From the NCBI RefSeq assembly GCF_001263175.1, contig NZ_CP012332.1, positions 2,291,501-2,355,500 on the forward strand: a stretch of 64,000 bases of DNA. Direction: 5' to 3'. Position 1 is the first letter of the stretch. Every line of letters begins with the position of its first letter. Below are positions 21,766-40,121 of the stretch, piece by piece. Both the position numbers and the translations under genes were made by a program. A model generated the notes under the pieces. That model saw nothing but the letters and a program-made list of their open reading frames with translations. It searched no databases and was not told the DNA's origin. This DNA comes from Vulgatibacter incomptus (lineage in GTDB: Bacteria > Myxococcota > Myxococcia > Myxococcales > Vulgatibacteraceae).

Positions 21766-21835
21766 GGAGTCCCACCCCACCCGCATGGATGGCCGTTCGA
21801 GATCGGACGAATCTTGGGCGAAGCGGCTGGAAGCG

Positions 21836-22718: not shown

Positions 22719-22730
22719 CTGATTTTCTGG

Positions 22731-22802
<72 letters not shown>

Positions 22803-22907: not shown

Positions 22908-22962
22908 CTTCGCGAGAACCGGCGGCGACGCACGTGCGCCGCCGCCGGGATCGCCATTACTG

Positions 22963-25794
22963 CTAGTGGAATCCGGTCCAACGGGTTCCATCCGGCGTGA
23001 AGACGCAGGTGGAGCCGTTGTACTGGACGCTTCCGACCACCTCGAACTGCTTGGTCGCGGTGAACACCGTGGTCGCGTTGTGGGCGAGCTGGCCGCCGCA
23101 GTAGATGTTCGTCGTCACGTTCACCGGATTCCGGCTGTTGCCGAAGTTGTGGATACCGACCGCGTACGGGTGGGTCAGGCTCGGGCTGTTGATCCGGGTG
23201 TTCTCCGGGCCGGTGCCGGGGATGTCGTCCCGATCGAGGCTGGCGGTGGAGTTCACGTCGCCGTCCCAGAGCGGGGTCGGCAGGTTACCGCGCTGGCAAT
23301 TCCCGTAGTAGCACTCCGCGTTGGTCCACCAGGAGGCCTGGGTCTGCCTGTTGCCGAGGGCCTCGTTGAGCACGTGGAGGTCGATGTCACCCGCCACGTC
23401 CCAGAAGGTCTCGACCCAGAGGCCGCCCCAGGGGGTCGCCGCGAGGGAGTGCTGGCAGGCCCCACGGTTCCCGAGCGCGTCCGTGACCATCAGCTCGAAG
23501 ACGTAGTTGCCCACGAGGTCCGGGATGAAGGCCGGGGTGCAGCCCGTCACGGGGTTCGGCCGAGCGCTCGAGCCGACCGGCGCGCTCACCACCGACCAGG
23601 TGCAGGTGGTCGCATGGCCACCGGGGCTGTAAGCGCCGCCGCTGAGCACGACCTGGGTGTTCACCGTCACCGACTGGCCCGTCGCGGGGCAGATCGCGGT
23701 CGGCCACTGGCAGAGCACGCCGCAGTCCTCATCCGTGCCCGAGCCGCGGGTTTCCACGAGGAACGGCTCGTCGACACCCTGCAGCCAGACCTCGATCTTG
23801 CCCACGTCCTGAACCAGATCCAGGGGCTTGTACGACGACAGGAAGCTCTTGGAGCCCTGCGAGGGGATCGCGACCGGGAGCGTCTCGTCCGCACGAACCG
23901 TGAACCTCTGGGAGTAGCCGGAGGCCATCGACACGCGGGAGACACGGACGGCGTCCACGCCGCGGTTGCGGATCAAGAAGGGCTTGAAGACCTGCAGCGA
24001 CTGCGGAACCGCAGGAACCGGGCCGAAGACGACCGGGTTCGGATCCGCGACGAGGTCGAAAGCGGTCGCGAGGCCGCTGATCGCCACCACGGCCCGGGGC
24101 GTCTCCACGTTGGAGTGGTTGAAGAAGAGGTTGCTCCGGTCGACGACGCCGGTGATCCGGGTCGGCGCGTAGCGGATCCCGACCGTGAACTTCTCACCCG
24201 GGGCCAGAACCTTCGAGGGCGTGGTGGGGAGATCCGGCGACGAGAAGGAGCGATGACCATCGGGGTCGAGGCCCACGTTCCACACCAGACACTCCGTCGT
24301 GCCCTGGTTCTTGATGTCGATGGGGAGCGAGACGCCCTTGTTCACCGTCACCGCGCCGAAGCGGAGCGAGGCCGGGGAGATGTCCAGGTCGCAGGGCGGG
24401 AGCTCGACCACGGTCGCCATCAGGTCGACCGTCGCGTACGGCATTTCCGCGGACTGGGCGCCATTCACGTAGAGGGGGAACTCCAGCGCGGCGGGATAAT
24501 CCTGCAGTTCGCTGCCGCGGAACGTGACCTCGAAGCCCTTGGGCCCGTCCAGCGTCCAGGGCGGCTGCGTGCCGTCGGCAGCGGCCACCGTGTAGGAGTC
24601 CGCGTTGAGACCGGAGATGAAAGGCCGCTCGACCGTGAGCGCGACCTGCTCACCGACGTTCTTGAGGACGAAGCTCAGCTTCGCGGCGAAGTTCTTGGGC
24701 TGCCTGCCAAAGTCCAGCGTCTTCGGATCGGCCTCCACGTCGATGCCGCCGCTCTTCCCGTCGACCGGGACCTCGAAGTAGAGCCGATCGTCGGGCCCCA
24801 TCACCCGGACCCGGGCGAACTTCCGGGGCTGGGCCACGTCCGCGGCGTCGAAGACGACCGTGACGGGGACGCTCGCGCCCGCCTCGACCTCGAAGGTCGA
24901 CGCGACGCCGTCGAGCGAGAACTCCCCCGGAGCCTCGCCTTCGTTGGCGGGATCCCGCTCCGGATCGCCGACGAGGGCCACGGAGGTGACGGTCGCCGAG
25001 AAGTCGCCGACGTTCTGGATGGTGAAGAAGGCGCTCTTCGACTGGGTGGGAGTCACGGTCCCGAGGCTGACGGTCGGGGGCGACGGACGGAGGTCCGTCG
25101 TGCCGCCGGAGCCGATGAGCTGGACCCGAACGTCCTGGCAGCTCGGGCACGGACGGAGGAGGAGCGACGCTGCGTGGGGGCCACGGTTGGCAGGCGTGAA
25201 GGAGACGTCGAGCGCGCGGGTCGTGCCGCCGGGGAGCTCCAGCTCCACGGCCTCGTTATCGAGGCGGAACGCGGTGCGGTCGCTGCCGCCCGTGATCGAG
25301 AGCGCCAGGTTCAGATCCTTCTCGACCAGGTTCGTGAGGTCGAGCGGAAGCGTCTTCGTGTCGCCCACCTTGATGGTGCCGAAGTCGAGGACCTCGACCA
25401 CTTCCACGACGCGCTTAACGCCCTCGCCGCGGAGGTCCATGGTGAGCACGTCATTCTTGGCGTTGGAGAGCGAGAGCTCCAGCTGGCCGTCGAAGCGCTC
25501 CTCCCGCAGCGGGAAGAAGGCCACCTTCACCTCGGCCTTCGCGCCGGGCGACAGGGTGACCTCGGAGGGCCGCATGTCGTAGCCGGTGGGAAGGTTGGAG
25601 GCCCGCACCCTGACCACGGACCGGCCGAGGTTGGAGAGGGTCACGAGCTTGGAGGCTTCGGTGCCCACGAAGACCTGGGCGAAGTCGATCGAATCGGGGT
25701 CTGCCACTACGAGGCCACGAGCATTCGTGACCGGGGGCTGGGAGCATGCTCCCAACAGCGAGGCCAGGAACAGGCCGAACAACAAACGTCGCAT
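22963..25794 (-). CDS. Multi-domain lipoprotein A of the tandem HYDIN-like/YfaP-like family
   Basis: A 943-residue lipoprotein. ATG 25794 follows GGAGGA at five bases and gives lipobox LLGAC (C17); an in-frame start 15 bases upstream is less likely. Order: six HYDIN/choice-of-anchor-D-like beta-sandwiches (first FAQVFVGTEASKLVTLSNLG, later LDFGRQPKNF and LRFGAVTVNKG), a PKD-like domain (about 700-790) and a YfaP/DUF2135-like domain (GDIDLHVLNEAL, SLDRDDIPGTGPEN). It is the most divergent of the five full-length copies. It lacks the Cys pair of the sixth HYDIN domain (AFDLVADPN, RNRG) present in B-E. It is likely an outer-membrane-anchored rod with a binding or adhesive tip; function unknown. 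Confidence 0.88.
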   Translation of the reverse strand: MRRLLFGLFLASLLGACSQPPVTNARGLVVADPDSIDFAQVFVGTEASKLVTLSNLGRSVVRVRASNLPTGYDMRPSEVTLSPGAKAEVKVAFFPLREERFDGQLELSLSNAKNDVLTMDLRGEGVKRVVEVVEVLDFGTIKVGDTKTLPLDLTNLVEKDLNLALSITGGSDRTAFRLDNEAVELELPGGTTRALDVSFTPANRGPHAASLLLRPCPSCQDVRVQLIGSGGTTDLRPSPPTVSLGTVTPTQSKSAFFTIQNVGDFSATVTSVALVGDPERDPANEGEAPGEFSLDGVASTFEVEAGASVPVTVVFDAADVAQPRKFARVRVMGPDDRLYFEVPVDGKSGGIDVEADPKTLDFGRQPKNFAAKLSFVLKNVGEQVALTVERPFISGLNADSYTVAAADGTQPPWTLDGPKGFEVTFRGSELQDYPAALEFPLYVNGAQSAEMPYATVDLMATVVELPPCDLDISPASLRFGAVTVNKGVSLPIDIKNQGTTECLVWNVGLDPDGHRSFSSPDLPTTPSKVLAPGEKFTVGIRYAPTRITGVVDRSNLFFNHSNVETPRAVVAISGLATAFDLVADPNPVVFGPVPAVPQSLQVFKPFLIRNRGVDAVRVSRVSMASGYSQRFTVRADETLPVAIPSQGSKSFLSSYKPLDLVQDVGKIEVWLQGVDEPFLVETRGSGTDEDCGVLCQWPTAICPATGQSVTVNTQVVLSGGAYSPGGHATTCTWSVVSAPVGSSARPNPVTGCTPAFIPDLVGNYVFELMVTDALGNRGACQHSLAATPWGGLWVETFWDVAGDIDLHVLNEALGNRQTQASWWTNAECYYGNCQRGNLPTPLWDGDVNSTASLDRDDIPGTGPENTRINSPSLTHPYAVGIHNFGNSRNPVNVTTNIYCGGQLAHNATTVFTATKQFEVVGSVQYNGSTCVFTPDGTRWTGFH

Positions 25795-25978
25795 TACTTC
25801 CTCCACCAAAGAACGCGCGATTCAACCATGTTCCGAGGCGGCTGCAAAGGTGTTCGATCGAACAGTTGCCTCGAGCGCAAGGATCATTCAGAGGACCCGG
25901 TCCGGCCATAGGCGCAATCGGTCGAAATCCCTCGAGTCCCTTCGCAGGCGGCCCCTGCCCCACCGCCTCCCAATGGAA

Positions 25979-26008
25979 ATCGGCGGCAGGGATGCCCCTG
26001 CCGCCGAT
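25979..26008 (-). terminator. GGCGGCAGGG hairpin after gene B
   Basis: Perfect 13-base-pair inverted repeat, arms ATCGGCGGCAGGG (25979-25991) and CCCTGCCGCCGAT (25996-26008), with loop ATGC. It lies 67 bases after the stop of gene B and upstream of gene A. The minus-strand flank (TTTCCATT) is not a good T tract. It has the same core as the hairpins after C, D and E. Confidence 0.65.
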
Positions 26009-26074
26009 CCGGTTCAGCCTTCTTCTGTGCCTCTCGCCCGGGATCCGCCCCTGGCGAGCCGTTCCTGCCGCGGC

Positions 26075-28891
26075 CTAGTGGAAGCCGCTCCAGCGGGTTC
26101 CATCCGGCGTGTAGATGCACGTGGAGCCGTTGTACTGGACGCTCCCGACGATCTCGAACTGCTTGGTCGCAGTAAACACCGAGGTTGCGTTGTGGACGAG
26201 GTTGCCGCCGCAGTAGATGTTGGTCGTCCCGGTGACCGGGGTCCGGGCGTTGCTGAAGTTGTGGACGCCGACCGCGTAGGCGTGGGTCAGGCTCGGGCTG
26301 TTGATCCGGATGTTCTCCGGGCCGGTGCCCACGATGTCGTCCCGATCGAGGCTGGCGGTGGCGTTGGCGTCACCGTCCCACAGCGGGCTCGGCAGGCTTC
26401 CGCGCTGGCAGTTTCCGTAGTAGCAGTCCGCGTTGCTCCACCAGGAGCTCTGGTTCTGCCGGGGGGCGCGGTCCTCGTTCAGCACGTGGATGTCCAGATC
26501 GCCGGCGTTGTCCCAGAAGAGCTCGACCCAGATGCCGCCCCAGGGGGTCGCGGTCAGGCTGTGCTGGCAGGCGCCGCGGTTGCCGAGCTGGTCCGTGACC
26601 ATCAGCTCGAACACGTAGTTACCCACGAGATCCGGGGTGAAGGTCGGGGTGCAGCCCGTCCCGACCGGCCGGACGCTCGAGCCCACCGGCGCGCTCGCCA
26701 CCGTCCAGGAACAGGTCGTCGGGTGGCCGCCAGGGCTGTAGGCCCCGCCGTTGAGCACGATCTGGGTGTTCACCGTCACCGACTGACCCGCCGCCGGGCA
26801 GATCGCCGTCGGCCAATCGCAGAGGACGCCGCAGGCTTCGTCCGTGCCCTGGCCCTGGGTCTCCACCAAGAACGGCTCATCGACGCCCTGCATCCAGACC
26901 TCGACCTTACCCACGTCCCGGACCAGATCCAGGGGCTTGTACGACGCCAGGAAGCCCTTCGTGCCATTCGAAGCGATCGTGACCGGGAGCGCCTCGTCTG
27001 AACGGGCCGTGAAGCGCTGCGAGTAGCCGGAGGCCATCGAAACCCGGGAGATCTTGACGACGTCCGTTCCGCAGTTCCGCACCACGAAGGGCTTGTAGAC
27101 CTGCAGCGATTGCGGAACCGCAGGGACCGGGCCGAAGGCAACCGGGTTCGGATCCGCCGAGAGGCAGAAGGACGTGGCGAGACCGCTGATCGGCACCACG
27201 GCCCGAGGCGTCTCCACATCGGAGTGGTTGAAGTAGAGGTTGGCACGATCGATGACGCCGGTGATCCGGGTCGGCTGGTAGCGGATCCCCACGGAGATCT
27301 TCTCCCCCGGCGCCAGGATCTTGGAGCCGTTGGGCAGGCCCGGAGCCGCGAAGACCCGATTCTCGGACTCGACGGCGAAGTTCCACACCAGGCACTCCGT
27401 CGTGCCCTGGTTCGTGACCTCGATGGGGAGCTGGACGCCCCGGCCCACCGTCACCGCGCCAAAGCGCAGAGACGACGGGGAGATGTCCAGGTCGCAGGGC
27501 GGGAGCTCGACCACGTTCGCCATCAGGTGGACCGTGACGTACGGCTGCTCCGCCGACATCGCGCCGTTCACGTAGATCGGGAAGTCGAGCTCGGCGGGAT
27601 ACTCCTGGAGCTCGCTGCCCTTGAAGGTGACCTCGAAGGCCATCGTGTTCGCATTCTGGGAATTCAGGTGCCACGGAGCCGACGTGCCATCGACGGCCGC
27701 CACGGTGTAGTTGGCCGGCTCGCTGGGCGGATAGAGCTCGATCGCGACGCTCTCGCCGATGTTCTGAAGGATGAAGGTCTTCTTCGCGGCGAAGTTCTTC
27801 GGCTGCCTGCCGAAGTCCACCGTCCCCGGATCGGCCTCCACCTCGATGCCGCCGCTCTTCCCGTCGACCGGGACCTCGAAGTAGAGCCCATCGGGGCCCA
27901 TCACCTGGATCTTGGCGAACTTCCGGGGCTCGGCCTGGGCCTCGGCCTTGAAGGAGATCGGCACCTGGACGGTTTCGCTCGACTGCACGACGAAGGGAAC
28001 GGCGAGGGTCGCCACCGAGAATTCAGTCGGGGGCGCGTCCTGGTGGGCCGGATCGCGGTCCGGATCGGGGACGAGGAAGACGGAGGTGACGGTCGCAGGA
28101 AAGTCGCCGACGTTCTGGATGCCGAAGTAATTGGTCTTCGACTCGTTCGGAGTCACCGTCCCGAAGCTCACGACCGACGGCGAGGGACGGAGCATCGTCG
28201 CCCCGCCCGAGCCCACCAGCTGGACCCGGACGTCCTGGCAGCTGGCGCACGGACGCAGCAGGAGGGAGGCCGCGTGGGGGCCGCGGTTGGCAGGCGTGAA
28301 CGAGACGTCGATCGCGCGGGTCGCCCCGCCCGGAAGCTCGACGGCGCCGTCGTCGACCCGGAACGCCGTGCGATCGCTGCCGCCCGTGATCGAGAGCGTC
28401 AGGTTCACGCTCTTCTCGACCAGATTCGTGAGATCGAGGGGCAAGGTCTTGGTGTCGCCGAGCTTGATGGTCCCGAAGTCCAGGACCTCGACCACCTCCA
28501 CCACGCGCTTCACGCCTTCGCCCTTGAGGTCGAGGGTGATGAGCTCGTTCTTGGCGTTGGACAGCGAGATCTTCAGCTGGCCGTCGAAGGGCTCCTCTCG
28601 AAGCGGGAAGAAGGCGATCTTCACCTCGGCCCTCCCGCCGGGCGCCAGCGAGAGCTCGGACGGCCGCATGTCGTAGCCGCTAGGGAAGTCGGACGCCCTC
28701 ACCTGCACCTGGGACCGGCCCGTGTTGGAAAGGGTCACGAGCTTCGAGGCCTCGGTCCCCACGAAGACCTGGCCGAAATCGATATTGTCAGGGTCTGCCT
28801 CGATGACGCCGCGGGCGGTCCCTACTACATCCTTTGCGCACGCACCGAGCAGCAGCGGCACCATCATCAGTCCTAAAAAGAGACGTCGCAT
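26075..28891 (-). CDS. Multi-domain lipoprotein B of the tandem family
   Basis: A 938-residue paralog of A, C, D and E. ATG 28891 follows GGAGGAGG at six bases, and the signal peptide ends LLLGAC (C18). Six HYDIN-like domains occupy roughly residues 25-685, with paired cysteines at CASCQD, CDLDIS/TTEC and SFCLSADPN/RNCG. CGVLC opens the PKD-like domain (about 690-780). The YfaP-like domain (DLDIHVLNEDR, DCYYGNCQ, SLDRDDIVGTGPEN) runs to the end DGTRWSGFH. The predicted product is exported, lipidated and disulfide-stabilised. It is separated from gene C by 450 bases, so it may have its own promoter. No catalytic motif is visible. Confidence 0.9.
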   Translation of the reverse strand: MRRLFLGLMMVPLLLGACAKDVVGTARGVIEADPDNIDFGQVFVGTEASKLVTLSNTGRSQVQVRASDFPSGYDMRPSELSLAPGGRAEVKIAFFPLREEPFDGQLKISLSNAKNELITLDLKGEGVKRVVEVVEVLDFGTIKLGDTKTLPLDLTNLVEKSVNLTLSITGGSDRTAFRVDDGAVELPGGATRAIDVSFTPANRGPHAASLLLRPCASCQDVRVQLVGSGGATMLRPSPSVVSFGTVTPNESKTNYFGIQNVGDFPATVTSVFLVPDPDRDPAHQDAPPTEFSVATLAVPFVVQSSETVQVPISFKAEAQAEPRKFAKIQVMGPDGLYFEVPVDGKSGGIEVEADPGTVDFGRQPKNFAAKKTFILQNIGESVAIELYPPSEPANYTVAAVDGTSAPWHLNSQNANTMAFEVTFKGSELQEYPAELDFPIYVNGAMSAEQPYVTVHLMANVVELPPCDLDISPSSLRFGAVTVGRGVQLPIEVTNQGTTECLVWNFAVESENRVFAAPGLPNGSKILAPGEKISVGIRYQPTRITGVIDRANLYFNHSDVETPRAVVPISGLATSFCLSADPNPVAFGPVPAVPQSLQVYKPFVVRNCGTDVVKISRVSMASGYSQRFTARSDEALPVTIASNGTKGFLASYKPLDLVRDVGKVEVWMQGVDEPFLVETQGQGTDEACGVLCDWPTAICPAAGQSVTVNTQIVLNGGAYSPGGHPTTCSWTVASAPVGSSVRPVGTGCTPTFTPDLVGNYVFELMVTDQLGNRGACQHSLTATPWGGIWVELFWDNAGDLDIHVLNEDRAPRQNQSSWWSNADCYYGNCQRGSLPSPLWDGDANATASLDRDDIVGTGPENIRINSPSLTHAYAVGVHNFSNARTPVTGTTNIYCGGNLVHNATSVFTATKQFEIVGSVQYNGSTCIYTPDGTRWSGFH

Positions 28892-29341
28892 CCGCGTCCT
28901 CCTCCAAAGAGTCCACACAAGCATGTGCGACCAAGGACACGGAGATCAATGATACATATTTGAGCACCAACGGAAAGTTTCACGCATGCCGAGCTGAAGG
29001 TTCGCCGTGCGATGACCAAAAGGTTCTTCAACGATCGCCGGAGCCGTGCAACCAGTCCATTCGGCTATCGTCGGGAATTCCGGCCGAATCGCAGCCGACG
29101 TATTCGTCGCGCCGTGGCGCCCATGTGGCTCATGAAAAAGAAAATCGGCACCGAGAGTCCCCAGGTGCCGTTCGAGACCAAAATCGAATTTCATGCCGGC
29201 GGAAGGCTTCGGCGATGGCGGCACCCCGCCCTCCCCTCGCGGATGGAATCGGCGGCAGGTTGCCCCGCCGCCGATTCGGACTCCAACGCCTGCCATCCCC
29301 CGCCCGCCCCGCAACGCGAGGCGGGCGATCTCCGCGAGACC
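28892..29341. other. 450-base spacer between lipoprotein genes B and C
   Basis: This is the longest spacer of the array. It holds the gene C hairpin (29246-29277) and a lower-GC patch near 28945-28985 that could contain the gene B promoter (CAAATATGTATCAT on the minus strand). A smaller inverted repeat, ATTCGGC...GCCGAAT, lies at 29059-29089. I see no coding frame with neighbour-like codon use and no clear -35/-10 pair. Confidence 0.4.
29246..29277 (-). terminator. GGCGGC hairpin after gene C
   Basis: Arms GAATCGGCGGC (29246-29256) and GCCGCCGATTC (29267-29277) pair perfectly over 11 bases around AGGTTGCCCC, which can extend the stem by two further pairs past one mismatch. It lies 64 bases after the stop of gene C and has no T tract. 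Same core as the hairpins after B, D and E. Confidence 0.6.
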
Positions 29342-32149
29342 TCAGTGGTAGTTGTTCCAGCGGGTCCCGTCTCGCGTGAAGATACACGTCGAACCGGTGT
29401 ACTGAACGCTCCCGAGGATCTCGAACTGGGCTGTCGAGGTGAAGGTCGAGTCCGCGTTGTGGACCAGGGTGCCGTCGCAGTAGACGTTCGTCGTCACGGT
29501 CACCGGAGTCTGCCGGTTGCCCCAGTTGTGGATGCCGATGGCGTACGGGTGGGTCAGGCTCGGTCTGTTGACGCGGGTATTCTCGGGTCCGAACCCATTT
29601 CTGTCGTCCCGATCGAGGCTCCCCGTCATGTCGATGTTGCCGTCCCACAGCGGGTTCGGGCGGCTTCCGTTGTAGCAATTCCCGAAGTAGCAATCCGAAG
29701 GGTTCGTGAACCAGCTGTTCTGGTTATGCCGATCGCCGAGGGCCTCGTTCAGCACGTGGAGATCGATGTCGCCCGACCTGTCCCAGAAGGTCTCGACCCA
29801 GAGGCCGTCCCAGGCGGTCGCCGTCAGGCCGTGCTGGCATGCGCCACGGTTCCCTAGCTGGTCCGTGACCATCAGCTCGAAGACGTAGTTGCCCACGAGG
29901 TCCGGGGTGAAGGTCGGGGTGCAGCCCGCGCTCGGCCGGGCTGTAGAGCCGACCGGCGCGCTCGCCACCGTCCACGCGCACGTGGTCGGGTGACCGCCGG
30001 GGCTGGTGGCCCCGCCGTTGAGCACGATCTGGGTGTTTACGGTCACCGACTGATTCGCCTCGGGGCAGATCGCGGTCGGCCAATCGCAGAGGACGCCGCA
30101 GCCGCCCTCCGTGCCCTGGCCCTGGGTCTCGACCAGGAACGGCTCGTCTACGCCCTGCGTCCAGACCTCGATCTTCCCCACGTCCCGGACCAGATCCAGG
30201 GGCTTGTAGGACGCAAGGAAGCTCTTCGTGCCGTTCGAGGTGATCGTGACCGGGAGCGTCTCATCGGCTCGGGCCGTGAAGCGCTGCGAGTAGCCGGAGG
30301 CCATCGAAACCCGGGAGATCTTGACGGGCTCCGGCCCGCAGTTCCGCACGAGGAAGGGCTTGAAGACCTGCTGCGACTGCGGCACCGCGCCGAAGGCGAC
30401 CGGACTCGGATCCGCCGAGAGGCAGAAGGACGTGGCCAGACCGCTGATCGGCACCACGAAGCGGGGCGCCTCCGCGCTCGAGTGGTTGAAGTAGAGGTTG
30501 GACCGATCGATGACGCCGGTGATCCGGGTCGGCTGATAGCGGATCCCCACGGTGATCGTGTCACCCGGCGCCAGGACCTGGGAGCCGGTGGGCAGCCCCG
30601 GAGCCGCGAAGGCCCGATTGTCGAAATCGAGGTCGAAGTTCCACACCAGGCACTCCGTCGTGCCCTGGTTCGTGATTTCGATGGGGAGCTGGACGCCGCG
30701 GTTCACCGTCACCGCGCCAAAGCGCAGAGACGACGGGGAGATGTCCAGGTCGCAGGGCGGGAGCTCGACCACGTTCGCCATCAGGTGGACGGTGACGAAC
30801 GACTGCTCCGCCGACATCGCACCGTTCACGTAGATTGGGAAGTCGATCTCGGCGGGATATTCCTGGATCTCGCTGCCCGTGAAGGTGACCTCGAAGGCCA
30901 TGGAGCCGGCATTCTGGGAATCCAGGACCCAGGGAGGCGACGTGCCATCGACAGCAGCCACGGAGTAGTTGGCCTGCTCGCTGGGCGGATAGAGCTCGAT
31001 CGCGACGCTCTCGCCGGTGTTTCGGATCAGGAAGGTCTGCTTCGCGGCGAAGTTCTTCGGCTGCCTGCCGAAGTCCACCGTCTCCGGTTCGGCGACCACC
31101 TCGATGCCGCCGCTCTTCCCGTCGACCGGCACCTCGAAGTAGAGGCGATCGTCGGGGCCCATCACCCGGATCTTGGCGTACTTCCGCGGCTCGGCAAGGG
31201 CCGCGGCCCGGAAGGCGACCGGCACCTCGATGGTCGCGCCCACCTCCACCTCGAAGGCGTCGTGGTTCCCCGGGAGCGAGAACTCCGACAGAAGCTCGTC
31301 GCTACCGCCGCTCCGAACCGGATCGTCGACGAGGGTCATGGAGGTGACGATCGCCGGGAAGTCGCCGATGTTCTGGATGGCGAACCAGCTGCTCTTCGAT
31401 TGGCCGGGCGCGACCGTGCCCACGCTCACCGTCGGCGGCGAGGCGCGGAGCTCCGTGATACCGCCGGTGCCCACGAGCTGGACCCGGACGTCCTGGCAGC
31501 TGGCGCACGGACGCAGCAGGAGGGAGGCCGCGTGGGGGCCGCGGTTGGCGGGCGTGAACGAGACGTCGATCGCGCGGGTCGTCCCGCCCGGAAGCTCGAC
31601 GGCCCCGTCGTCGACCCGGAAGGCCGTGCGATCGCTGCCGCCCGCGATCGAGAGCGCCAGGTTCAGGCTCTTATCGATCAGGTTCGTGAGATCGAGAGGC
31701 AGGGTCTTGGTCTCGCCGAGCTTGATGACCCCGAAGTCGAGGACCTCGACCGGGTCCACCACGCGCTTCACGCCCTCGCCCTCGAGGTCGAGCGCGATGA
31801 GCTCGTTCTTCGCGTTTGACAGCGAGATCTTCAGCTGGCCGTCGAAGCGCTCCTCCCGAAGCGGGAAGAAGGCGATCTTCACCTCGGCCTTCGCGCCGGG
31901 CGCCAGGGTGAGCTCGGACGGCCGCATGTCGTAGCCGCTAGGGATGTCGGAGGCCCTCACTTGCACCAGGGAGCGGCCCATATTGGAGAGCGTGACGAGC
32001 TTCGAGGCCTCGGTCCCTACGAAGACCTGGCCGAATTGGATCAAATTGGAGTCTGCGACCACATTGCCGCGGACGTCCCCGAGGTCGGGCTTGGAACATC
32101 CACCGATCAGCAACGGAATTAGAAGCATCCAAATATGGAGACACCGCAT
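29342..32149 (-). CDS. Multi-domain lipoprotein C of the tandem family
   Basis: A 935-residue paralog. ATG 32149 follows AAGGAGG and the signal ends LLIGGC (C18). The frame is open 80 codons upstream, but only this start gives a lipobox. The domain plan is the same as in B, D and E: six HYDIN-like domains, PKD-like, then YfaP-like. Differences include a longer third domain (SGGSDELLSEFSLPGNHDAFEVEVG), loss of three residues at FGAVPQSQQVF and a YfaP segment of the type SWFTNPSDCYFGNCYNG shared with E. The end is DGTRWNNYH. Probably outer-membrane or surface exposed; function unknown. Confidence 0.9.
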   Translation of the reverse strand: MRCLHIWMLLIPLLIGGCSKPDLGDVRGNVVADSNLIQFGQVFVGTEASKLVTLSNMGRSLVQVRASDIPSGYDMRPSELTLAPGAKAEVKIAFFPLREERFDGQLKISLSNAKNELIALDLEGEGVKRVVDPVEVLDFGVIKLGETKTLPLDLTNLIDKSLNLALSIAGGSDRTAFRVDDGAVELPGGTTRAIDVSFTPANRGPHAASLLLRPCASCQDVRVQLVGTGGITELRASPPTVSVGTVAPGQSKSSWFAIQNIGDFPAIVTSMTLVDDPVRSGGSDELLSEFSLPGNHDAFEVEVGATIEVPVAFRAAALAEPRKYAKIRVMGPDDRLYFEVPVDGKSGGIEVVAEPETVDFGRQPKNFAAKQTFLIRNTGESVAIELYPPSEQANYSVAAVDGTSPPWVLDSQNAGSMAFEVTFTGSEIQEYPAEIDFPIYVNGAMSAEQSFVTVHLMANVVELPPCDLDISPSSLRFGAVTVNRGVQLPIEITNQGTTECLVWNFDLDFDNRAFAAPGLPTGSQVLAPGDTITVGIRYQPTRITGVIDRSNLYFNHSSAEAPRFVVPISGLATSFCLSADPSPVAFGAVPQSQQVFKPFLVRNCGPEPVKISRVSMASGYSQRFTARADETLPVTITSNGTKSFLASYKPLDLVRDVGKIEVWTQGVDEPFLVETQGQGTEGGCGVLCDWPTAICPEANQSVTVNTQIVLNGGATSPGGHPTTCAWTVASAPVGSTARPSAGCTPTFTPDLVGNYVFELMVTDQLGNRGACQHGLTATAWDGLWVETFWDRSGDIDLHVLNEALGDRHNQNSWFTNPSDCYFGNCYNGSRPNPLWDGNIDMTGSLDRDDRNGFGPENTRVNRPSLTHPYAIGIHNWGNRQTPVTVTTNVYCDGTLVHNADSTFTSTAQFEILGSVQYTGSTCIFTRDGTRWNNYH

Positions 32150-32349
32150 CGCCGTCCTCCTTTTCAGAATACACTCTACAAATGTACGAATGAGGCCGGT
32201 TGGATCACCAAGTGTTCCCTGGGCGCAGTGGCTCGACGGACCTCGCCGAAGCCTGCCGGCAAGAAGATCCGATCCTGATTGATTTCCCATCCTCCGATTC
32301 CGCCCTCGCAGGGGGACCGGACGGCCGTCGGCACCCCTGTTAAAAGCGA

Positions 32350-32378
32350 ATCGGCGGCAGGGAAGCCCTGCCGCCGAT
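32350..32378 (-). terminator. GGCGGCAGGG hairpin after gene D
   Basis: Perfect 13-base-pair stem, ATCGGCGGCAGGG (32350-32362) with CCCTGCCGCCGAT (32366-32378), loop AAG. The minus-strand flank reads TCGCTTTTAAC, a weak T tract, making it the most terminator-like of the four recurrent hairpins. It lies 68 bases after the stop of gene D. Confidence 0.68.
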
Positions 32379-32446
32379 CTGCTCTTCATCCTGGCATCAC
32401 GCCTGCTGCCCCGATCTTCGACGAGGCAAGCAGACGCCGCCGGGGA

Positions 32447-35260
32447 CTAGTGGAACCCGGTCCAGCGAGTACCGTCCCGCGTGAAGATGCAGGTGGACCC
32501 GTTGTACTGAGCGCTCCCGACGATCTCGAACTGCTTGGTCGCAGTGAACACCGTGGTGGCGTTGAACGCGAGCGAGCCACCGCAGTAGAGGTTCGTCGTT
32601 ACGTTGATCGGATTCCGGGAGTTGCTGAAGTTGTGGATCCCGATGGCGTATGGGTGGGTCAGGCTCGGGCTGTTGATCCGGATGTTCTCCGGGCCCGTGC
32701 CAGGGATGTCGTCGCGGTCGAGGCTCGCCGTCATGTTGATGTCGTTATCCCACAGCGGGTTCGGCCGGCTACCGAGCTGGCAGTCTCCGTAGTAGCAGTC
32801 CGCGCTGCTCCACCAGCTGGCCTGGTTCCCCCTGGCGCCGCGATCCTCGTTCACCAGGTGGAGATCGATGTCACCCGCCGCGTCCCAGAAGGTCTCCACC
32901 CAGAGGCCGCCCCAGGGGGTCGCCGTCAGGCTGTGCTGACACGCGCCACGGTTGCCGAGCTGGTCGGTAACCATCAGCTCGAACACGTAGTTGCCCACGA
33001 GATCCGGGGTGAAGGTCGGGGTGCACCCCCCTCCGACCGGCCGGGCGCTCGAGCCCACCGGCGCGCTCGCGACCGTCCACGAACAGGTGGTCGGGTGGCC
33101 GCCGGGGCTGTAGGCCCCGCCGCTGAGCACGATCTGCGTGTTCACCGTCACCGACTGACCCGCCGCCGGGCAGATCGCCGTCGGCCAATCGCAGAGGACG
33201 CCGCAAATATCGTCCGTGCCCTGGCCCTGGGTCTCGACCAGGAACGGCTCGTCGACGCCCTGCATCCAGACCTCGACCTTACCCACGTCCCGAACCAGAT
33301 CCAGGGGCTTGTACGACGCCAGGAAGCTCTTCGTGCCATTCGAGGCGATCGTGACCGGGAGGGTCTCGTCGGATCGAGCCGTGAAACGCTGCGAGTAGCC
33401 GGAGGCCATCGATACCCGGGAGATCCGGACGGCGTCCGTTCCACAGTTCCGGACGACGAAGGGCTTGAACACCTGCAGCGACTGCGGAACCGCAGGAACC
33501 GGGCCGAAGGCGACCGGGTTCGGATCCGCCGAGAGGCAGAAGGACGTCGCGAGACCGCTGATCGCCACCACGGCCCGAGGCGTCTCCACATCGGAGTGGT
33601 TGAAGTAGAGGTTGGTACGATCGATGACGCCGGTGATCCGGGTCGGCTGGTAGCGGATCCCCACGGTGATCTTGTCACCCGGCGCCAGGACCTGGGAGCC
33701 GTTGGGCAGGCCCGGAGCCGCGAAGGCCCGATTTTCGGTGTCGAGGGCGAAGTTCCACACCAGGCACTCCGTCGTGCCCTGGTTCGTGATCTCGATGGGG
33801 AGCTGGACGCCGCGGTTCACCGTCACCGCGCCAAAGCGCAGAGAGGACGGGGAGATATCCAGGTCGCAGGCCGGGAGCTCGACCACGTTCGCCATCAGGT
33901 GGACCGTGACGAACGGCTGCTCCGCCGACATCGCGCCGCCCACGTAGATCGGGAAGTCCATCTCGGCGGGATACTCCTGGATCTCGCTGCCCTTGAAGGT
34001 GACCTCGAAGGCCATCGAGTTCGCATTCTGGGAATTCAGGTGCCAGGGAGCCGACGTGCCATCGACGGCCGCCACGGTGTAGTTGGCCTGCTCGCTGGGC
34101 GGATAGAGCTCGAGCGCGACGCTCTCGCCGCTGTTTCGGATCATGAAGGTCTTCTTCGCGGCGAAGTTCTTCGGCTGCCTGCCGAAGTCCACCGTCTTCG
34201 GATCGGCCTCCACCTCGATGCCGCCGCTCTTCCCGTCGACCGGGACCTCGAAGTAGAGCCCATCGGGGCCCATCACCTGGACCTTTGCGAACTTCCGGGA
34301 ATCGGCAGCTGTGGCGTCGAAGGAGACCGCCACGTCGACGGTCGCGCTCACCCCCACCTCGAACTCGCCGGTCGCCGCGAGCGAGAACTCCCGCGGAGCC
34401 TCCCCTTCGGTGGCGGGATCCCGAACCGGGTCGCCGACGAGGGTCATGGAAGTGACGGTCGCCGGGAAGTCACCGATGTTCTGGATGGAGAAGTAGCGGG
34501 TATTCGACTCACCGGGGGTCACCGTCCCCAGGCTCAACGTCGGCGGCGAGGCGCGGAGCTCCGTGATACCGCCGGTGCCCACGAGCTGGACGCGGACGTC
34601 CTGGCAGGTCGCGCACGGACGCAGCAGGAGGGAGGCCGCGTGGGGGCCGCGGTTGGCAGGCGTGAACGAGACGTCGATCGCGCGGGTCGCCCCGCCCGGG
34701 AGCTCGACGGCCCCGTCGTCGACCCGGAAGGCAGTGCGATCGCTGCCGCCCGTGATCGAGAGCGTCAGGTTCAGGCTCTTCTCGATCAGGTTCGTGAGAT
34801 CGAGGGGGAGGGTCTTGGTATCGCCGAGCTTGATGGTCCCGAAGTCGAGGACCTCGACCACCTCCACCACGCGCTTCACACCCTCGCCCTTGAGTTCGAG
34901 GGCGATGAGCTCGTTCTTGGCGTTGGACAGCGAGATCTTCAGCTGGCCGTCGAATCGCTCCTCTCGAAGCGGGAAGAAGGCGACCTTCACCTCGGCCTTC
35001 CCGCCGGGCGCCAGGGTGAGCTCGGACGGCCGCATATCGTAGCCGCTAGGGAAGTCGGACGCCCTCACCTGAACCAGGGAGCGGCCCGTGTTGGAGAGCG
35101 TGACGAGCATCGAGGCCTCGGTCCCCACGAAGACCTGGCCGAAGTCGATTTCTGTTGCAGGGTCAGACACGATGACGCCACGGGCGCTTCCGAGCGGCTC
35201 CTTGGCACATCCCACGAGCATCAGCGGGACCAGCAGCAGTCCGTACAAGAAATGTCGCAT
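32447..35260 (-). CDS. Multi-domain lipoprotein D of the tandem family
   Basis: A 937-residue paralog, closest to E through most of its length (both begin MRH, then F or L, LYGLLLVPLMLVGCAKEPL). The start ATG 35260 follows GAGGAAA; the lipidated cysteine is C18. It has six HYDIN-like domains (about 25-685), PKD-like (about 690-780) and YfaP-like (about 790-937). In the YfaP domain it carries the type SWWSSADCYYGDCQLG, shared with A and B rather than with its nearest relative E. The end is DGTRWTGFH. Cys pairs of the HYDIN domains are intact (CATCQD, CDLDIS/TTEC, SFCLSADPN/RNCG). Confidence 0.9.
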   Translation of the reverse strand: MRHFLYGLLLVPLMLVGCAKEPLGSARGVIVSDPATEIDFGQVFVGTEASMLVTLSNTGRSLVQVRASDFPSGYDMRPSELTLAPGGKAEVKVAFFPLREERFDGQLKISLSNAKNELIALELKGEGVKRVVEVVEVLDFGTIKLGDTKTLPLDLTNLIEKSLNLTLSITGGSDRTAFRVDDGAVELPGGATRAIDVSFTPANRGPHAASLLLRPCATCQDVRVQLVGTGGITELRASPPTLSLGTVTPGESNTRYFSIQNIGDFPATVTSMTLVGDPVRDPATEGEAPREFSLAATGEFEVGVSATVDVAVSFDATAADSRKFAKVQVMGPDGLYFEVPVDGKSGGIEVEADPKTVDFGRQPKNFAAKKTFMIRNSGESVALELYPPSEQANYTVAAVDGTSAPWHLNSQNANSMAFEVTFKGSEIQEYPAEMDFPIYVGGAMSAEQPFVTVHLMANVVELPACDLDISPSSLRFGAVTVNRGVQLPIEITNQGTTECLVWNFALDTENRAFAAPGLPNGSQVLAPGDKITVGIRYQPTRITGVIDRTNLYFNHSDVETPRAVVAISGLATSFCLSADPNPVAFGPVPAVPQSLQVFKPFVVRNCGTDAVRISRVSMASGYSQRFTARSDETLPVTIASNGTKSFLASYKPLDLVRDVGKVEVWMQGVDEPFLVETQGQGTDDICGVLCDWPTAICPAAGQSVTVNTQIVLSGGAYSPGGHPTTCSWTVASAPVGSSARPVGGGCTPTFTPDLVGNYVFELMVTDQLGNRGACQHSLTATPWGGLWVETFWDAAGDIDLHLVNEDRGARGNQASWWSSADCYYGDCQLGSRPNPLWDNDINMTASLDRDDIPGTGPENIRINSPSLTHPYAIGIHNFSNSRNPINVTTNLYCGGSLAFNATTVFTATKQFEIVGSAQYNGSTCIFTRDGTRWTGFH

Positions 35261-35581
35261 CGCTTTCCTCCACGAAGGGTGAATCGCTGCAACTCATGTA
35301 GGCAGGACGGCTCCCGGATCACCGCGGAGGCGAAATCGGTAAGATTCCTACAGCTCGCGATTCGGTAGCCCGCAAGGGACTTGAGGACACCGGGCGTGCC
35401 GCGTCCACTCAATTCCCTGATTCATGCGCGATCTCGCGCACTTGGGCCGATACTCGGAGGGCTCGGCGGCAGGGAACCCTGCCGCCGAGGGGACTCCACC
35501 AGCGACGTCCAGCCTGGTGGCAGACTGACTCACAAGTGCCCGCCCCGCGTCTTCACGTGGGGCGGGCACGGTCCACGGGTC
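35261..35581. other. 321-base spacer between lipoprotein genes D and E
   Basis: This holds the hairpin after gene E (35462-35489). The 200 bases nearest gene D should contain its promoter and leader, but no consensus -35/-10 pair is evident. No gene is seen. Confidence 0.4.
35462..35489 (-). terminator. GGCGGCAGGG hairpin after gene E
   Basis: Perfect 13-base-pair stem, CTCGGCGGCAGGG (35462-35474) with CCCTGCCGCCGAG (35477-35489), separated by only two bases (AA), so the top pairs must open. It has no T tract on the minus strand and lies 92 bases after the stop of gene E. Two arm positions differ from the B and D hairpins in a compensatory way (A-T to C-G at the base of the stem). Confidence 0.62.
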
Positions 35582-38395
35582 CTAGTGGACCCAGCGCATG
35601 CCGTCCCGTGTGACGATGCAGGTGGAGCCGTTGTACTGGATGCTCACCGCCACCTCGAACTGTCGAGTCGCGGTGAACACCGTGGTCGTGTTGTACGCCA
35701 GGGCGCCACCGCAGTAGATGTTCGTCGTCACGTTGACCGGGTTTCGGGAGTTGCCCCAGTTGTGGATGCCGACCGCGTAGGGGTGGGTCAGGCTCGGGCT
35801 GTTGATCCGGGTGTTCTCCGGGCCGGTGCCGGGGATGTCGTCGCGGTCGAGGCTCGCCGTCATGTTGATGTCGTTATCCCACAGCGGATTCGGGCGGTTG
35901 CCGCTGTAGCAGTTCCCGAAGTAGCAGTCCGAAGGATTCCTGAACCAGCTGGCGTCCTGATGGCGGTCGCCGAGATCCTCGTTCAGCACGTGGAGATCGA
36001 TGTCACCCGCCGCGTCCCAGAAGGTCTCCACCCAGAGGCCGCCCCAGGGGGTCGCCGTCAGGCTGTGCTGGCAGGCGCCACGGTTGCCGAGCTGGTCCGT
36101 AACCATCAGCTCGAACACGTAGTTGCCCACGAGATCCGGGGTGAAGGTCGGGGTGCACCCCCCTCCGACCGGCCGGGCGCTCGAGCCCACCGGCGCGCTC
36201 GCCACCGTCCACGAACAGGTGGTCGGGTGGCCGCCGGGGCTGTAGGCGCCGCCGCTGAGCACGATCTGGGTGTTCACCGTCACCGACTGACCCGCCGCCG
36301 GGCAGATCGCCGTCGGCCAATCGCAGAGGACGCCGCAAGCATCGTCCGTGCCCTGGCCCTGGGTCTCGACGAGGAACGGCTCGTCGACGCCCTGCATCCA
36401 GACCTCGACCTTACCCACGTCCCGAACCAGGTCCAGGGGCTTGTACGACGCCAGGAAGCTCTTCGTGCCATTCGAAGCGATCGTGACCGGGAGGGTCTCG
36501 TCGGATCGGGCCGTGAAGCGCTGCGAGTAGCCGGAGGCCATCGAAACCCGGGAGATCCGGACGGCGTCCGTTCCACAGTTCCGGACGACGAAGGGCTTGA
36601 ACACCTGCAGCGACTGCGGAACCGCAGGAACCGGGCCGAAGGCGACCGGGTTCGGATCCGCCGAGAGGCAGAAAGACGTCGCGAGACCGCTGATCTGCAC
36701 CACGGCCCGAGGCGTCTCGACATTGGAGTGGTTGAAGTAGAGGTTGGTACGATCGATGACGCCGGTGATCCGGGTCGGCTGGTAGCGGATCCCCACGGTG
36801 ATCTTTTCACCCGGCGCCAGGACCTGGGAGCCGTTGGGCAGGCCCGGAGCCGCGAAGGCCCGATTGTCGGTGTCGAGGTCGAAGTTCCACACCAGGCACT
36901 CCGTCGTGCCCTGGTTCGTGATCTCGATGGGGAGCTGGACACCGCGGTTCACCGTCACCGCGCCAAAGCGCAGCGACGACGGGGAGATGTCCAGGTCGCA
37001 GGCCGGGAGCTCGACCACGTTCGCCATCAGGTGGACCGTGACGAACGGCTGCTCCGCCGACATCGCGCCGCTCACGTAGATCGGGAAGTCCATCTCGGCG
37101 GGATACTCCTGGATCTCGCTGCCCTTGAAGGTGACCTCGAAGGCCATCGAGTTCGCATTGTGCGAATCCAGGCGCCAGGGAGCCGACGTGCCATCGACGG
37201 CCGCCACGGTGTAGTTGGCCTCCTCGCTGGGCGGATAGAGATCGAGCGCGACGCTCTCGCCGATGTTTCGGATCATGAAGGTCTTCTTCGCGGCGAAGTT
37301 CTTCGGCTGCCTGCCGAAGTCCACCGTCCCCGGATCGGCCTCCACCTCGATGCCGCCGCTCTTCCCGTCGACCGGGACCTCGAAGTAGAGCCCATCGGGG
37401 CCCATCACCTGGATCTTGGCGAACTTCCGGGGCTCGGCCTGGGGCGCGGCCTTGAAGGAGACCTCCACCTCGACGGTCGCGCTCACCCCCACCTCGAACT
37501 CGCCGGTCGCCGCGAGCTTGAACTCCTCCGGAGCCTCCCCTTCGTTGGCGGGATCCCGAACCGGATCGACGACGAGGGTCATGGAGGTGACGGTCGCCGG
37601 GAAGTCACCGATGTTCTGGATGGCGAACCAGCTGCTCTTCGACTCGCCGGGGGTGACCGTGCCCATGGTCACCGTCGGCGGAGAGGCGCGGAGCTCCGTG
37701 ATACCGCCGGTGCCCACGAGCTGGACGCGGACGTCCTGGCAGCTGGCGCAAGGACGCAGCAGGAGGGAGGCCGCGTGGGGTCCGCGGTTGGCCGGCGTGA
37801 ACGAGACGTCGATCGCGCGGGTCGCCCCCCCCGGAAGCTCGACGGCCCCGTCGTCGACCCGGAAGGCCGTGCGATCGCTGCCGCCCGTGATCGAGAGGTC
37901 CAGGTTCAGGCTCTTCTCGATCAGGTTCGTGAGGTCGAGGGGGAGGGTCTTGGTGTCGCCGAGCTTGATGGTCCCGAAGTCCAGGACCTCGACCACCTCC
38001 ACCACGCGCTTCACGCCCTCGCCCTTGAGGTCGAGGGTGACGAGCTCGTTCTTGGCGTTGGACAGCGAGATCTTCAGCTGGCCGTCGAAGCGCTCCTCGC
38101 GAAGCGGGAAGAAGGCGATCTTCACCTCGGCCTTCCCGCCGGGCGCCAGCGAGAGCTCGGACGGCCGCATGTCGTAGCCGCTAGGGAAGTCGGACGCCCT
38201 CACCTGCACCTGGGACCGGCCCGTGTTGGAGAGGGTCACGAGCTTCGAGGCCTCGGTCCCCACGAAGACCTGGCCGAAGTCGACTTCCGTTTTAGGGTCA
38301 GACACGACGACGCCGCGGGCGCTCCCTAGCGGCTCCTTGGCACATCCCACGAGCATCAGCGGGACCAGCAGCAGCCCGTACAACAAATGTCGCAT
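35582..38395 (-). CDS. Multi-domain lipoprotein E of the tandem family
   Basis: A 937-residue paralog, first in transcription order of the full-length copies. ATG 38395 follows GAGGAGGA; lipobox MLVGC (C18). Rough domain limits are HYDIN-like repeats 30-135, 138-240, 243-348, 350-465, 468-572 and 573-685, PKD-like 687-780 and YfaP-like 790-937. It resembles D closely except in the YfaP domain, where DRHQDASWFRNPSDCYFGNC and HNWGN match C. The end is shortened to DGMRWVH. HYDIN-like repeats act as binding scaffolds elsewhere. The YfaP-like tip suggests ligand binding, but no function can be assigned. Confidence 0.9.
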   Translation of the reverse strand: MRHLLYGLLLVPLMLVGCAKEPLGSARGVVVSDPKTEVDFGQVFVGTEASKLVTLSNTGRSQVQVRASDFPSGYDMRPSELSLAPGGKAEVKIAFFPLREERFDGQLKISLSNAKNELVTLDLKGEGVKRVVEVVEVLDFGTIKLGDTKTLPLDLTNLIEKSLNLDLSITGGSDRTAFRVDDGAVELPGGATRAIDVSFTPANRGPHAASLLLRPCASCQDVRVQLVGTGGITELRASPPTVTMGTVTPGESKSSWFAIQNIGDFPATVTSMTLVVDPVRDPANEGEAPEEFKLAATGEFEVGVSATVEVEVSFKAAPQAEPRKFAKIQVMGPDGLYFEVPVDGKSGGIEVEADPGTVDFGRQPKNFAAKKTFMIRNIGESVALDLYPPSEEANYTVAAVDGTSAPWRLDSHNANSMAFEVTFKGSEIQEYPAEMDFPIYVSGAMSAEQPFVTVHLMANVVELPACDLDISPSSLRFGAVTVNRGVQLPIEITNQGTTECLVWNFDLDTDNRAFAAPGLPNGSQVLAPGEKITVGIRYQPTRITGVIDRTNLYFNHSNVETPRAVVQISGLATSFCLSADPNPVAFGPVPAVPQSLQVFKPFVVRNCGTDAVRISRVSMASGYSQRFTARSDETLPVTIASNGTKSFLASYKPLDLVRDVGKVEVWMQGVDEPFLVETQGQGTDDACGVLCDWPTAICPAAGQSVTVNTQIVLSGGAYSPGGHPTTCSWTVASAPVGSSARPVGGGCTPTFTPDLVGNYVFELMVTDQLGNRGACQHSLTATPWGGLWVETFWDAAGDIDLHVLNEDLGDRHQDASWFRNPSDCYFGNCYSGNRPNPLWDNDINMTASLDRDDIPGTGPENTRINSPSLTHPYAVGIHNWGNSRNPVNVTTNIYCGGALAYNTTTVFTATRQFEVAVSIQYNGSTCIVTRDGMRWVH

Positions 38396-38575: not shown

Positions 38576-38611
38576 TGAAAAGCCGGAGACGAATGGGCTT
38601 CCGTCCCCGGC
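38576..38611 (-). terminator. Terminator downstream of the mini-paralog F
   Basis: Arms GCCGGAGACG (38582-38591) and CGTCCCCGGC (38602-38611) form a 10-base-pair stem with one wobble and a 10-base loop. The minus strand continues CTTTTCATTT. It lies 60 bases after the stop of F. The sequence is unrelated to the GGCGGCAGGG hairpins. Confidence 0.7.
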
Positions 38612-38670: not shown

Positions 38671-39558
38671 CTATTCGCAGGGGTCCTCGCAATCGAGGCT
38701 CTCCCCCCATCCTCGGAGCTCGACCCGGTAAGGCTCGTCGGCGCCTTCCATCCAGACCTCGAGCCACGCCGTCTCCAGGTACATGCCCCGCGGCCTGTAA
38801 GAGGCCAAGAAGCTCTTGGATCCCCCGGGAAAAATGAACAGGGGAAGGGCCTCCTCGGCCCTCGCGGAAAAGGCCGGAGGAAGGTCGGACACGATGGAGA
38901 GACGGACGATCCGAACTACGTCGTCGCCCAAATTGAACATGGTGAACGCCTTGAAGGCCTGGAGCGTCTGCGGCCAGGCCGGAACCGGGCCGAAGTCGAG
39001 CGGGTCCCGATCCGCGACGAGGCGCAGGGAAGTTGCGAAGGTCGACGCCCTCAGGTCGACCTGCACGAAGGGCTGCTCTTCCGAGAGCTGGCCGTTCACG
39101 AAGACCGGGAGAACCAACGACGCGGCGTAGTCCTTGACTTCGCTCCCACGGAACGTGACCTCGAGTGCCAGGGGCCGCTCGTCGATGATCCAGGGCCCCT
39201 CGGCGCCGTCGAGGTCCGTCACGGTGAAGGAAGTGGCATCCGGAGACGCAATCACCGGCTGGTCGACAGTGATCCGTGCCGGATCCCCGACGTTCTGGAG
39301 AATGAGGGTCCTTCTCGCCAGGAAGCCCTTCGGCAATCGTCCGAAGTCCACCTCGCCCGGAGGACACCCGACGACCTCGATCCGGACTCTCTCTTCGCCT
39401 CCCCCGGAACCGCCGTCGGCACCGATGCCACCTGTCCGACCATCTACTCCGGAGTCTCCCGGACCGGCGGAGCCTCCAGGTTCGGCTTCGGGGCCACCAC
39501 TTCCGCTTCCGCACGACGCGAGAAAGAGAGCGAGAACCAGCACCACGACAGGGCGCAT
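38671..39558 (-). CDS. Mini-paralog F of the tandem lipoprotein family
   Basis: A 295-residue lipoprotein. ATG 39558, five bases after GAGG, gives the signal LFLASC (C16). A GTG two codons upstream is the alternative. After an acidic Gly-rich tether (about 18-55) come two HYDIN-like domains matching the fourth (VDFGRLPKGFLARRTLILQNVG) and sixth (PLDFGPVPAWPQTLQAF) domains of A-E. The fifth HYDIN domain, the first three, and the PKD- and YfaP-like regions are absent. It ends at the equivalent of the CGVLC junction with SLDCEDPCE. It may be an ancestral core or a deletion derivative. It sits between the ribosomal operon and the array with its own terminator. Confidence 0.85.
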   Translation of the reverse strand: MRPVVVLVLALFLASCGSGSGGPEAEPGGSAGPGDSGVDGRTGGIGADGGSGGGEERVRIEVVGCPPGEVDFGRLPKGFLARRTLILQNVGDPARITVDQPVIASPDATSFTVTDLDGAEGPWIIDERPLALEVTFRGSEVKDYAASLVLPVFVNGQLSEEQPFVQVDLRASTFATSLRLVADRDPLDFGPVPAWPQTLQAFKAFTMFNLGDDVVRIVRLSIVSDLPPAFSARAEEALPLFIFPGGSKSFLASYRPRGMYLETAWLEVWMEGADEPYRVELRGWGESLDCEDPCE

Positions 39559-39637
39559 AATCACCTCACGGAACGGGTCCAGCCGTCACATGTCCTCTCG
39601 CCGGGAAACGGATCACCCGACCGGGGGACCCTGCCGC

Positions 39638-39728: not shown

Positions 39729-40121
39729 CTATTCGGCTTCCGCCGGCGCCGCCGCAGCCGTCTCCGGCCGATCGACCAGCTCGAGGTACGCCATCTCCGC
39801 GGAGTCGCCCAGCCGGCGACCGATGCGGACGATCCGCGTGTACCCGCCCGGGCGAGCGCCGTAGCGCTCCGCGAGGGTGCTGAAGAGCTTCGAGAGCACG
39901 TCCTTGTCGTGCACCGTCTTGCTCGCGAGCCGCCTGGCGTGGAGCGAGCCCTTCTTCCCGAGGGTGATCACCCGGTCGGCAAGCTTGCGGGCTTCCTTCG
40001 CCTTGGGCACCGTGGTGCGGATCCTCTCGTGCCGCAGGAGCGAGATGACCATGTTGTCCATCATCGCTTCCCGATGAGCCGAGGTCCGCGAGAACTTGCG
40101 GCCGGCAACTCCGTGACGCAT
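39729..40121 (-). CDS. rplQ: 50S ribosomal protein L17
   Basis: Binds 23S rRNA near the exit tunnel of the large subunit. The 130-residue protein has the L17 start [20 protein letters not shown], with [15 protein letters not shown] in the centre. The C-terminal tail is rich in Ala, Pro and Glu ([11 protein letters not shown]), slightly longer than in E. coli. ATG 40121 is the start; the frame is open further upstream but has no homology there. It is the last gene of the alpha segment, after rpoA, and is followed by a terminator. Confidence 0.97.

Follow-up and report, generated by a model that had tools for sequence, protein, structure and literature searches.

A tandem array of five modular lipoprotein genes beside the ribosomal operon of Vulgatibacter incomptus, with homogenised stalks and distinct tips

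Five intact genes for large modular lipoproteins lie head to tail next to a ribosomal operon of V. incomptus, between borders that enclose a single gene in its nearest relative. In four of them (copies A-D) the rod-like stalks are homogenised and the C-terminal tips are not, and in Myxococcota different tips occur on the same type of rod. All five genes would belong, as full members, to a single Myxococcota family of modular lipoproteins of the outer membrane. Their products may be display stalks on this membrane that bear a small repertoire of adhesion or recognition heads, the array having grown in tandem and its stalks having been converted, a reading in which about even confidence is placed. 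The heads would then be exposed at the surface and bind ligands, and the tips would have been spared by selection for head diversity.

Structure of the locus and its products

The analysed window was a stretch of 64,000 nucleotides (positions 2291501-2355500) of a genome that consists of one contig of 4,350,553 bp. On the minus strand the gene order is rplQ, a short paralog, copies A, B, C, D and E, and then tRNA-Cys (Table 1). An initial annotation, made from the sequence of the window, had described five tandem, head-to-tail paralogs of about 940 residues, 3.1-3.3 kb apart and adjacent to the ribosomal operon; this was confirmed, with ORFs of 943, 938, 935, 937 and 937 aa (E to A) and rplQ at the upstream border. 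The ORFs of all five copies are complete, and copies B-E are 76-91% identical to A over the full length of the protein. GGAGG precedes the ATG of each copy, in agreement with the ribosome site claimed for every gene. For copy C, a 1015-aa version of the ORF begins upstream of this site, so the ATG at 32149 was taken. The copies had also been considered intact. Each was found to have a start and a lipobox, the overall pN/pS of 0.4-0.5 indicates purifying constraint on the coding sequence, and GC3 (0.89-0.92) is like that of rpoA (0.92).

Table 1. Array genes, neighbouring genes and hairpins, in window coordinates
Feature	Position	Strand	Remarks
PP2C phosphatase with cyclic-nucleotide-binding domain	20479-22179	-	Adjoins array; conserved in relative L082
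tRNA-Cys(GCA)	22728..22802	-	Downstream border of array; same border in relative L082
GC hairpin	22919..22948	-	After copy E; different from those after A-D
Copy E, 943 aa	22963..25794	-	Most divergent copy of the array (76% identity to A); rod outside the A-D homogenisation; without Cys pair 576/607
Hairpin as after copy A	25979..26008	-	After copy D
Copy D, 938 aa	26075..28891	-	84% identity to A; clusters with A/B by its rod and with E by its tip
Hairpin as after copy A, variant arms	29247..29276	-	After copy C
Copy C, 935 aa	29342..32149	-	ATG at 32149; 82% identical to A
Hairpin as after copy A	32350..32378	-	After copy B
Copy B, 937 aa	32447..35260	-	91% protein identity to A; in nucleotides versus A, rod mostly 95-98%, tip 76-90%
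GC hairpin CTCGGCGGCAGGG..CCCTGCCGCCGAG, terminator-like, weak T tract	35462..35489	-	After copy A
Copy A, 937-aa lipoprotein	35582..38395	-	Lipobox C18; six ASH/HYDIN domains ~30-684; PKD ~685-783; YfaP/TerD-like tip ~784-937
Hairpin with T-rich tail, terminator-like	38582..38611	-	After short paralog
Short paralog, 297-aa lipoprotein	38671..39564	-	Between copy A and rplQ; begins at GTG or at the ATG that follows; LASC lipobox
rplQ (ribosomal protein L17)	39729..40121	-	Upstream border of array; same border in relative L082

An assembly artefact, which had been named as a finding that would refute the array, was ruled out, since the copies lie on a single 4.35-Mb contig, show 9-24% residue differences from A and are separated by nearly unrelated spacers. 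Identity between the spacers was barely above that of shuffled sequences, apart from a palindrome; the duplications were therefore taken to be old. Each array gene is followed by a GC-rich hairpin; behind A, B, C and D the hairpin is a form of this one palindrome (CGGCGGCAGGG..CCCTGCCGCCG), which in the strict form searched was found nowhere else in the genome. A sigma-70 scan, uninformative for a high-GC genome, returned no promoter-like site in 18 kb.

As a count of full copies in the array the number five stood, but it does not cover the whole set: the short paralog had been overlooked, and more family members lie elsewhere in the genome. The short paralog consists only of a domain-4-like and a domain-6-like module (38% and 47% identity to the respective domains of copy A), without PKD domain and tip. 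Its GC3 of 0.78 is below that of copies A-E and of rpoA.

Each of copies A-E has the same build: a lipobox cysteine is followed by six choice-of-anchor D/HYDIN domains, then by a PKD-like domain, and the chain ends in a tip of about 150 aa that all five share. The initial annotation had named choice-of-anchor D, PKD and DUF2135 domains as targets for profile searches. The first was found above the cut-offs in all five copies (NF012200, 126-144 bits versus 45, E 1e-36 to 1e-42; PF22544, 101-131 bits versus 25.5), but the Pfam PKD profile PF22352 stayed below its cut-off (17.6-25.7 versus 27), and PF09906 was absent. The PKD domain is KIAA0319L-like (PDB profile match, E 2.6e-23), and its predicted fold matched AAVR (6ihb, Z 10.8). 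Structure prediction with AlphaFold, for which an alignment of the window and related loci was used as input, placed six Ig-like domains, PKD domain and tip in the same order as the HMMs (full chain, pLDDT 84, pTM 0.41; PKD and tip alone, pLDDT 94). The lipoprotein rod and the eight-domain plan that had been proposed were supported. Confident domains with uncertain relative orientation are consistent with a flexible rod.

By inspection, the N-terminus of all five proteins is short and hydrophobic and ends in (G/A)C(A/S); the aligned cysteine is also present in paralogs F and G of a second cluster (see below). Judged from Ala or Ser at position +2, copies A-E are probably sorted to the outer membrane. 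The same cysteines had been ascribed to all copies, which holds for the lipobox but not for C576/C607: this pair is present in A-D, and both members are missing together in E, F and G. The pattern suggests that the pair may form a disulphide gained in domain 6 of A-D.

Divergence of rods and tips

Silent difference was counted at codons with a shared amino acid, and rod and tip were compared by Fisher test. The values for rod and tip were 0.065 and 0.168 (A-B), 0.127 and 0.272 (A-C), 0.097 and 0.273 (A-D), 0.138 and 0.299 (B-C), 0.111 and 0.243 (B-D), and 0.139 and 0.295 (C-D). Silent divergence of the rod was thus two to three times below that of the tip in every one of these six comparisons (p 6e-4 to 6e-6), which are not independent of each other; the array supplies only five sequences. 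In every pair that involved E, F or G, rod and tip rates were equal (p 0.12-1). The tip is therefore not fast-mutating, and the rods of A-D were made alike after the tips had diverged. Homogenisation of the A-D stalks by gene conversion, with the tips exempted, is well supported.

Outside domain 3, identity among the rods of A-D is about 90-98% for most windows. D resembles A and B most closely in its rod, and E in its tip. The rod data rejected the tip tree (AU p 2e-4); rejection of the rod tree by the tip data was only marginal (p 0.052; 0.040 for the first half of the tip). The long tip loop occurs in two types, PSDCYFGNC in A and C, and A(D/E)CYYG(N/D)C in B, D and E. A GENECONV-style permutation of the longest silent run yielded one strong pair only, D-E in the tip (p 0.005; A-B, 0.06), and the informative test was the rod/tip Fisher comparison. 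Duplication of A/B and later import of a different tip would yield part of the rod/tip pattern.

The idea of a repertoire, put forward in the initial annotation, received evolutionary support from homogenised rods, non-homogenised tips and conflicting trees, but an excess of replacements was not found in the tip (pN/pS 0.4-0.6). Peaks of pN/pS were located in a domain-3 loop (residues 277-306, 0.94) and in the long tip loop (806-847, 0.63), versus 0.19 in the PKD strands, and no segment exceeded 1 among those tested. Since the tip value is below 1, spared tips are seen and positive selection is not demonstrated. Gene conversion among A-D would keep the stalks alike, with the heads and, less so, the domain-3 loop spared and distinct; the heads kept distinct would include the two types of long loop.

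The chief rival to selection on the heads is an end-of-repeat effect, because the signal-peptide end is spared as well (nucleotide identity down to 0.52). Tandem duplication would then have been neutral or driven by dosage, gene conversion would have been of the ordinary kind, with the stalk made alike owing to its length and central position and the 3' end spared since tracts rarely reach the repeat ends, where homology ceases, and the copies would do the same job. The spacers indeed carry little homology for tracts to cross, but homology continues into the tip, which is mostly 71-90% identical. The tip boundary is also too far from the end (more than 460 bp) and too abrupt (A-B identity falls from 0.97 to 0.76-0.84 at residue ~785) to fit well, and an internal region, domain 3, is spared too (A-D 0.66 at 278-316 versus 1.00 at 335-373). 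Values of pN/pS below 1 in each segment tested would suit neutral duplication; the concentration of nonsynonymous change in the long tip loop and the domain-3 loop would not. This account is possible, though unlikely.

Mosaic tips and the conflict between rod and tip trees would also arise if one or two copies were expressed and the others donated tip sequence by recombination. Expression may differ between the copies, as their upstream regions are nearly unrelated. Such switching is nonetheless very improbable: all five genes are full ORFs that encode a lipobox, each with a start and a ribosome site of its own and a hairpin behind it, the GC3 of all five resembles that of rpoA, and no silent cassettes and no invertible or repeat-tract switch were seen. 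Decoy diversity had been suggested for the array; neither decoy switching nor phase variation left any sign that was found.

Related genes, stalks and heads in Myxococcota

The metagenome-assembled genome ZC4RG40 (L023/L082), the nearest relative and the sole genome of the same family that was compared, carries secY-adk-map-rpsM-rpsK-rpsD-rpoA-rplQ, one lipoprotein of 726 aa with rod, PKD domain and tip, tRNA-Cys and the PP2C/cNMP gene, as read from the ORFs and tRNA of L082. The borders of the array are the same, the PP2C/cNMP gene included. A single gene between these borders indicates growth in place, and the array has most likely expanded from one ancestral gene, which would have been duplicated in tandem between rplQ and tRNA-Cys.

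A second cluster of V. incomptus (C1:1166-1175 kb) is located beside a mutS-like gene and contains two full copies, F (56% identity to A) and G (50%), and a truncated third. The third copy lacks the signal peptide and domains 3-6, and an open frame with PKD domain and tip has been kept. An IS-type transposase gene (rve domain) lies directly before this decayed copy (L016:11033-12037 and 12102-13379; G000:C1:1173-1175 kb). Shorter relatives are present at 1830 kb and 4016 kb. The PKD-tip module was detected in 69 of 156 Myxococcota genomes (E<=1e-30). Comparison of copy number, which the initial annotation had proposed, bore out the expansion: V. incomptus has the most copies (10, next 7), with one gene at the ZC4RG40 locus. 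Among the 156 genomes no run of five was seen outside V. incomptus; nearby same-strand pairs of these lipoproteins recur (G131, G132, G156, G160, G161 and G162), which suggests that tandem duplication is common in the family. A contig-level search for related loci returned five distant loci only.

The module of PKD domain and head is found on three stalks, namely six-ASH rods, MopE-type repeats (PF11617, E 9.5e-44) and two-ASH stalks. The second type, a long Cys-rich repeat stalk with a YfaP-like head, was observed in L055, L056, L057 and L058 from other Myxococcota. Conversely, in many Myxococcales the six-ASH rod ends in a MIDAS/VWA-type head whose DxSxS/T/D motif is invariant, and V. incomptus itself has two such genes (G000:C1:597742-599622 and 3443685-3445703; L018 and L019, the former with no clear in-frame lipobox). 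This head matches residues 622-873 of CglD (E 2.3e-13) and MIDASAdhsBdello (E 1.4e-12), both below curated cut-offs; in relatives it is named as a MIDAS head by NCBIfam, and not by Pfam or PDB sequence searches. Copies A-E all end in PKD domain and YfaP-like head and gave no VWA, CglD or MIDAS family match at E<=1.

Several described systems share parts of this build. The gliding machinery of Myxococcus includes the outer-membrane lipoprotein CglB and CglD, which is predicted to be another (PMC4488436); the Bdellovibrio MIDAS adhesin Bd0875, according to PMC11003981, leaves prey killing without invasion when lost. Their MIDAS heads have counterparts on the six-domain rod in relatives, whereas the array proteins bear a PKD domain and YfaP-like head and no MIDAS. 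With the choice-of-anchor D (NF012200)/HYDIN-ASH proteins of Myxococcota the array shares all six stalk domains, and full-length rods align across the order; the array differs in being a five-fold tandem with homogenised stalks. The mosaic adhesive trimer (MAT) fibres of Bdellovibrio, described as a repertoire for prey-surface recognition (PMC10769870), work alike, with a common fibre and diversified tips, but are unrelated phage-like trimeric fibres and not lipoproteins of Ig-like domains. A search of a literature library returned nothing relevant on choice-of-anchor D lipoproteins, ASH/HYDIN in Myxococcus, or DUF2135/YfaP. The earlier statement that no described system of this exact build was known calls for a qualification: both modules, rod and tip, are found widely across Myxococcota, and what is unusual is the expansion at one locus with concerted stalks and separate heads.

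Tip fold and possible function

The tip had been called YfaP-like. In a profile comparison (hhalign) it matched E. coli YfaP over 74 columns (prob 96, E 3.8e-9, 32% identity), with the core WD..DxDLH...D..TG.GPE aligned, but Pfam DUF2135 (PF09906) was not reached, with 0 matches in the V. incomptus genome at E<=0.001 and a match in the E. coli control. YfaP is a protein of 258 aa and has neither an ASH stalk nor a lipobox; the array tips have a long Cys-containing loop inserted. By structure comparison, the fold predicted for the tip was closest to TerD (3ibz; Z 12.0, rank 1, 133 residues, 3.3 A, model residues 100-252); Foldseek on the PKD-tip model returned mostly Ig and PKD proteins, and TerD was prominent only in the VIA re-comparison. 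A collinear WD..D[FI]DL...D..TG.G motif occurs in TerD, YfaP and most tips, with the acidic motif conserved by inspection. At the sequence level, hhalign of the tip to TerD/E/Z/X was not significant (prob 0.1), and no PF02342 (TerD family) gene was found in the V. incomptus genome or in 57 relatives. TerD, moreover, is cytoplasmic. From the model and these comparisons the head is called TerD-like in fold and YfaP-like by homology, and the name TerD itself is not applied to it. Klebsiella TerD is a Ca2+-binding protein (Pan 2011, as cited in PMC8123226). Since the tip has no significant sequence match to TerD, Ca2+ binding by the heads, which may be expected, rests on fold and motif.

In the proposed mechanism, six Ig-like HYDIN/ASH domains would form a flexible stalk that is anchored by the lipidated cysteine, and the PKD domain would join this stalk to the Cys-containing YfaP/TerD-like head. 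The stalks would hold a small set of different, probably metal-dependent (Ca2+) heads away from the outer membrane, and through these heads the cell would adhere to or recognise a surface, a matrix or other cells. Display and adhesion are proposed mainly because adhesin-type MIDAS heads occur on the same rod in relatives.

A lipoprotein can also face the periplasm, which counts against display. The rods might reach across the periplasm or be packed within the outer membrane, and a TerD/YfaP-like metal-binding head might act in envelope or Ca2+ homeostasis or stress and not in outside recognition. YfaP, annotated as a DUF2135 protein in E. coli and encoded beside yfaS/yfaQ, is not known to act as an adhesin. 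A TerD-domain gene of Streptomyces is reported to be active in calcium homeostasis (Daigle 2015, as cited in PMC8123226). Such an envelope role is considered improbable, given the adhesin-type MIDAS heads on the same rod in relatives and the differences between the tips of the copies.

A more specific form of the display reading is put forward tentatively, as somewhat less probable than even: conversion would keep the six-Ig-domain stalk uniform while selection holds the TerD/YfaP-like, metal-dependent heads apart, giving a locally evolved recognition repertoire, and in relatives within the phylum whole heads (MIDAS, YfaP-like) and stalks (ASH, MopE) would be swapped.

For predatory and social Myxococcota, surface recognition is still largely uncharted, and the array offers five natural heads on one stalk for a direct comparison of binding. 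The model would link the uncharacterised DUF2135/YfaP domain to the fold of TerD, itself a Ca2+-binding protein. The lipoprotein rods and heads of myxobacteria, including rods with CglD-like MIDAS heads, are exchangeable modules.
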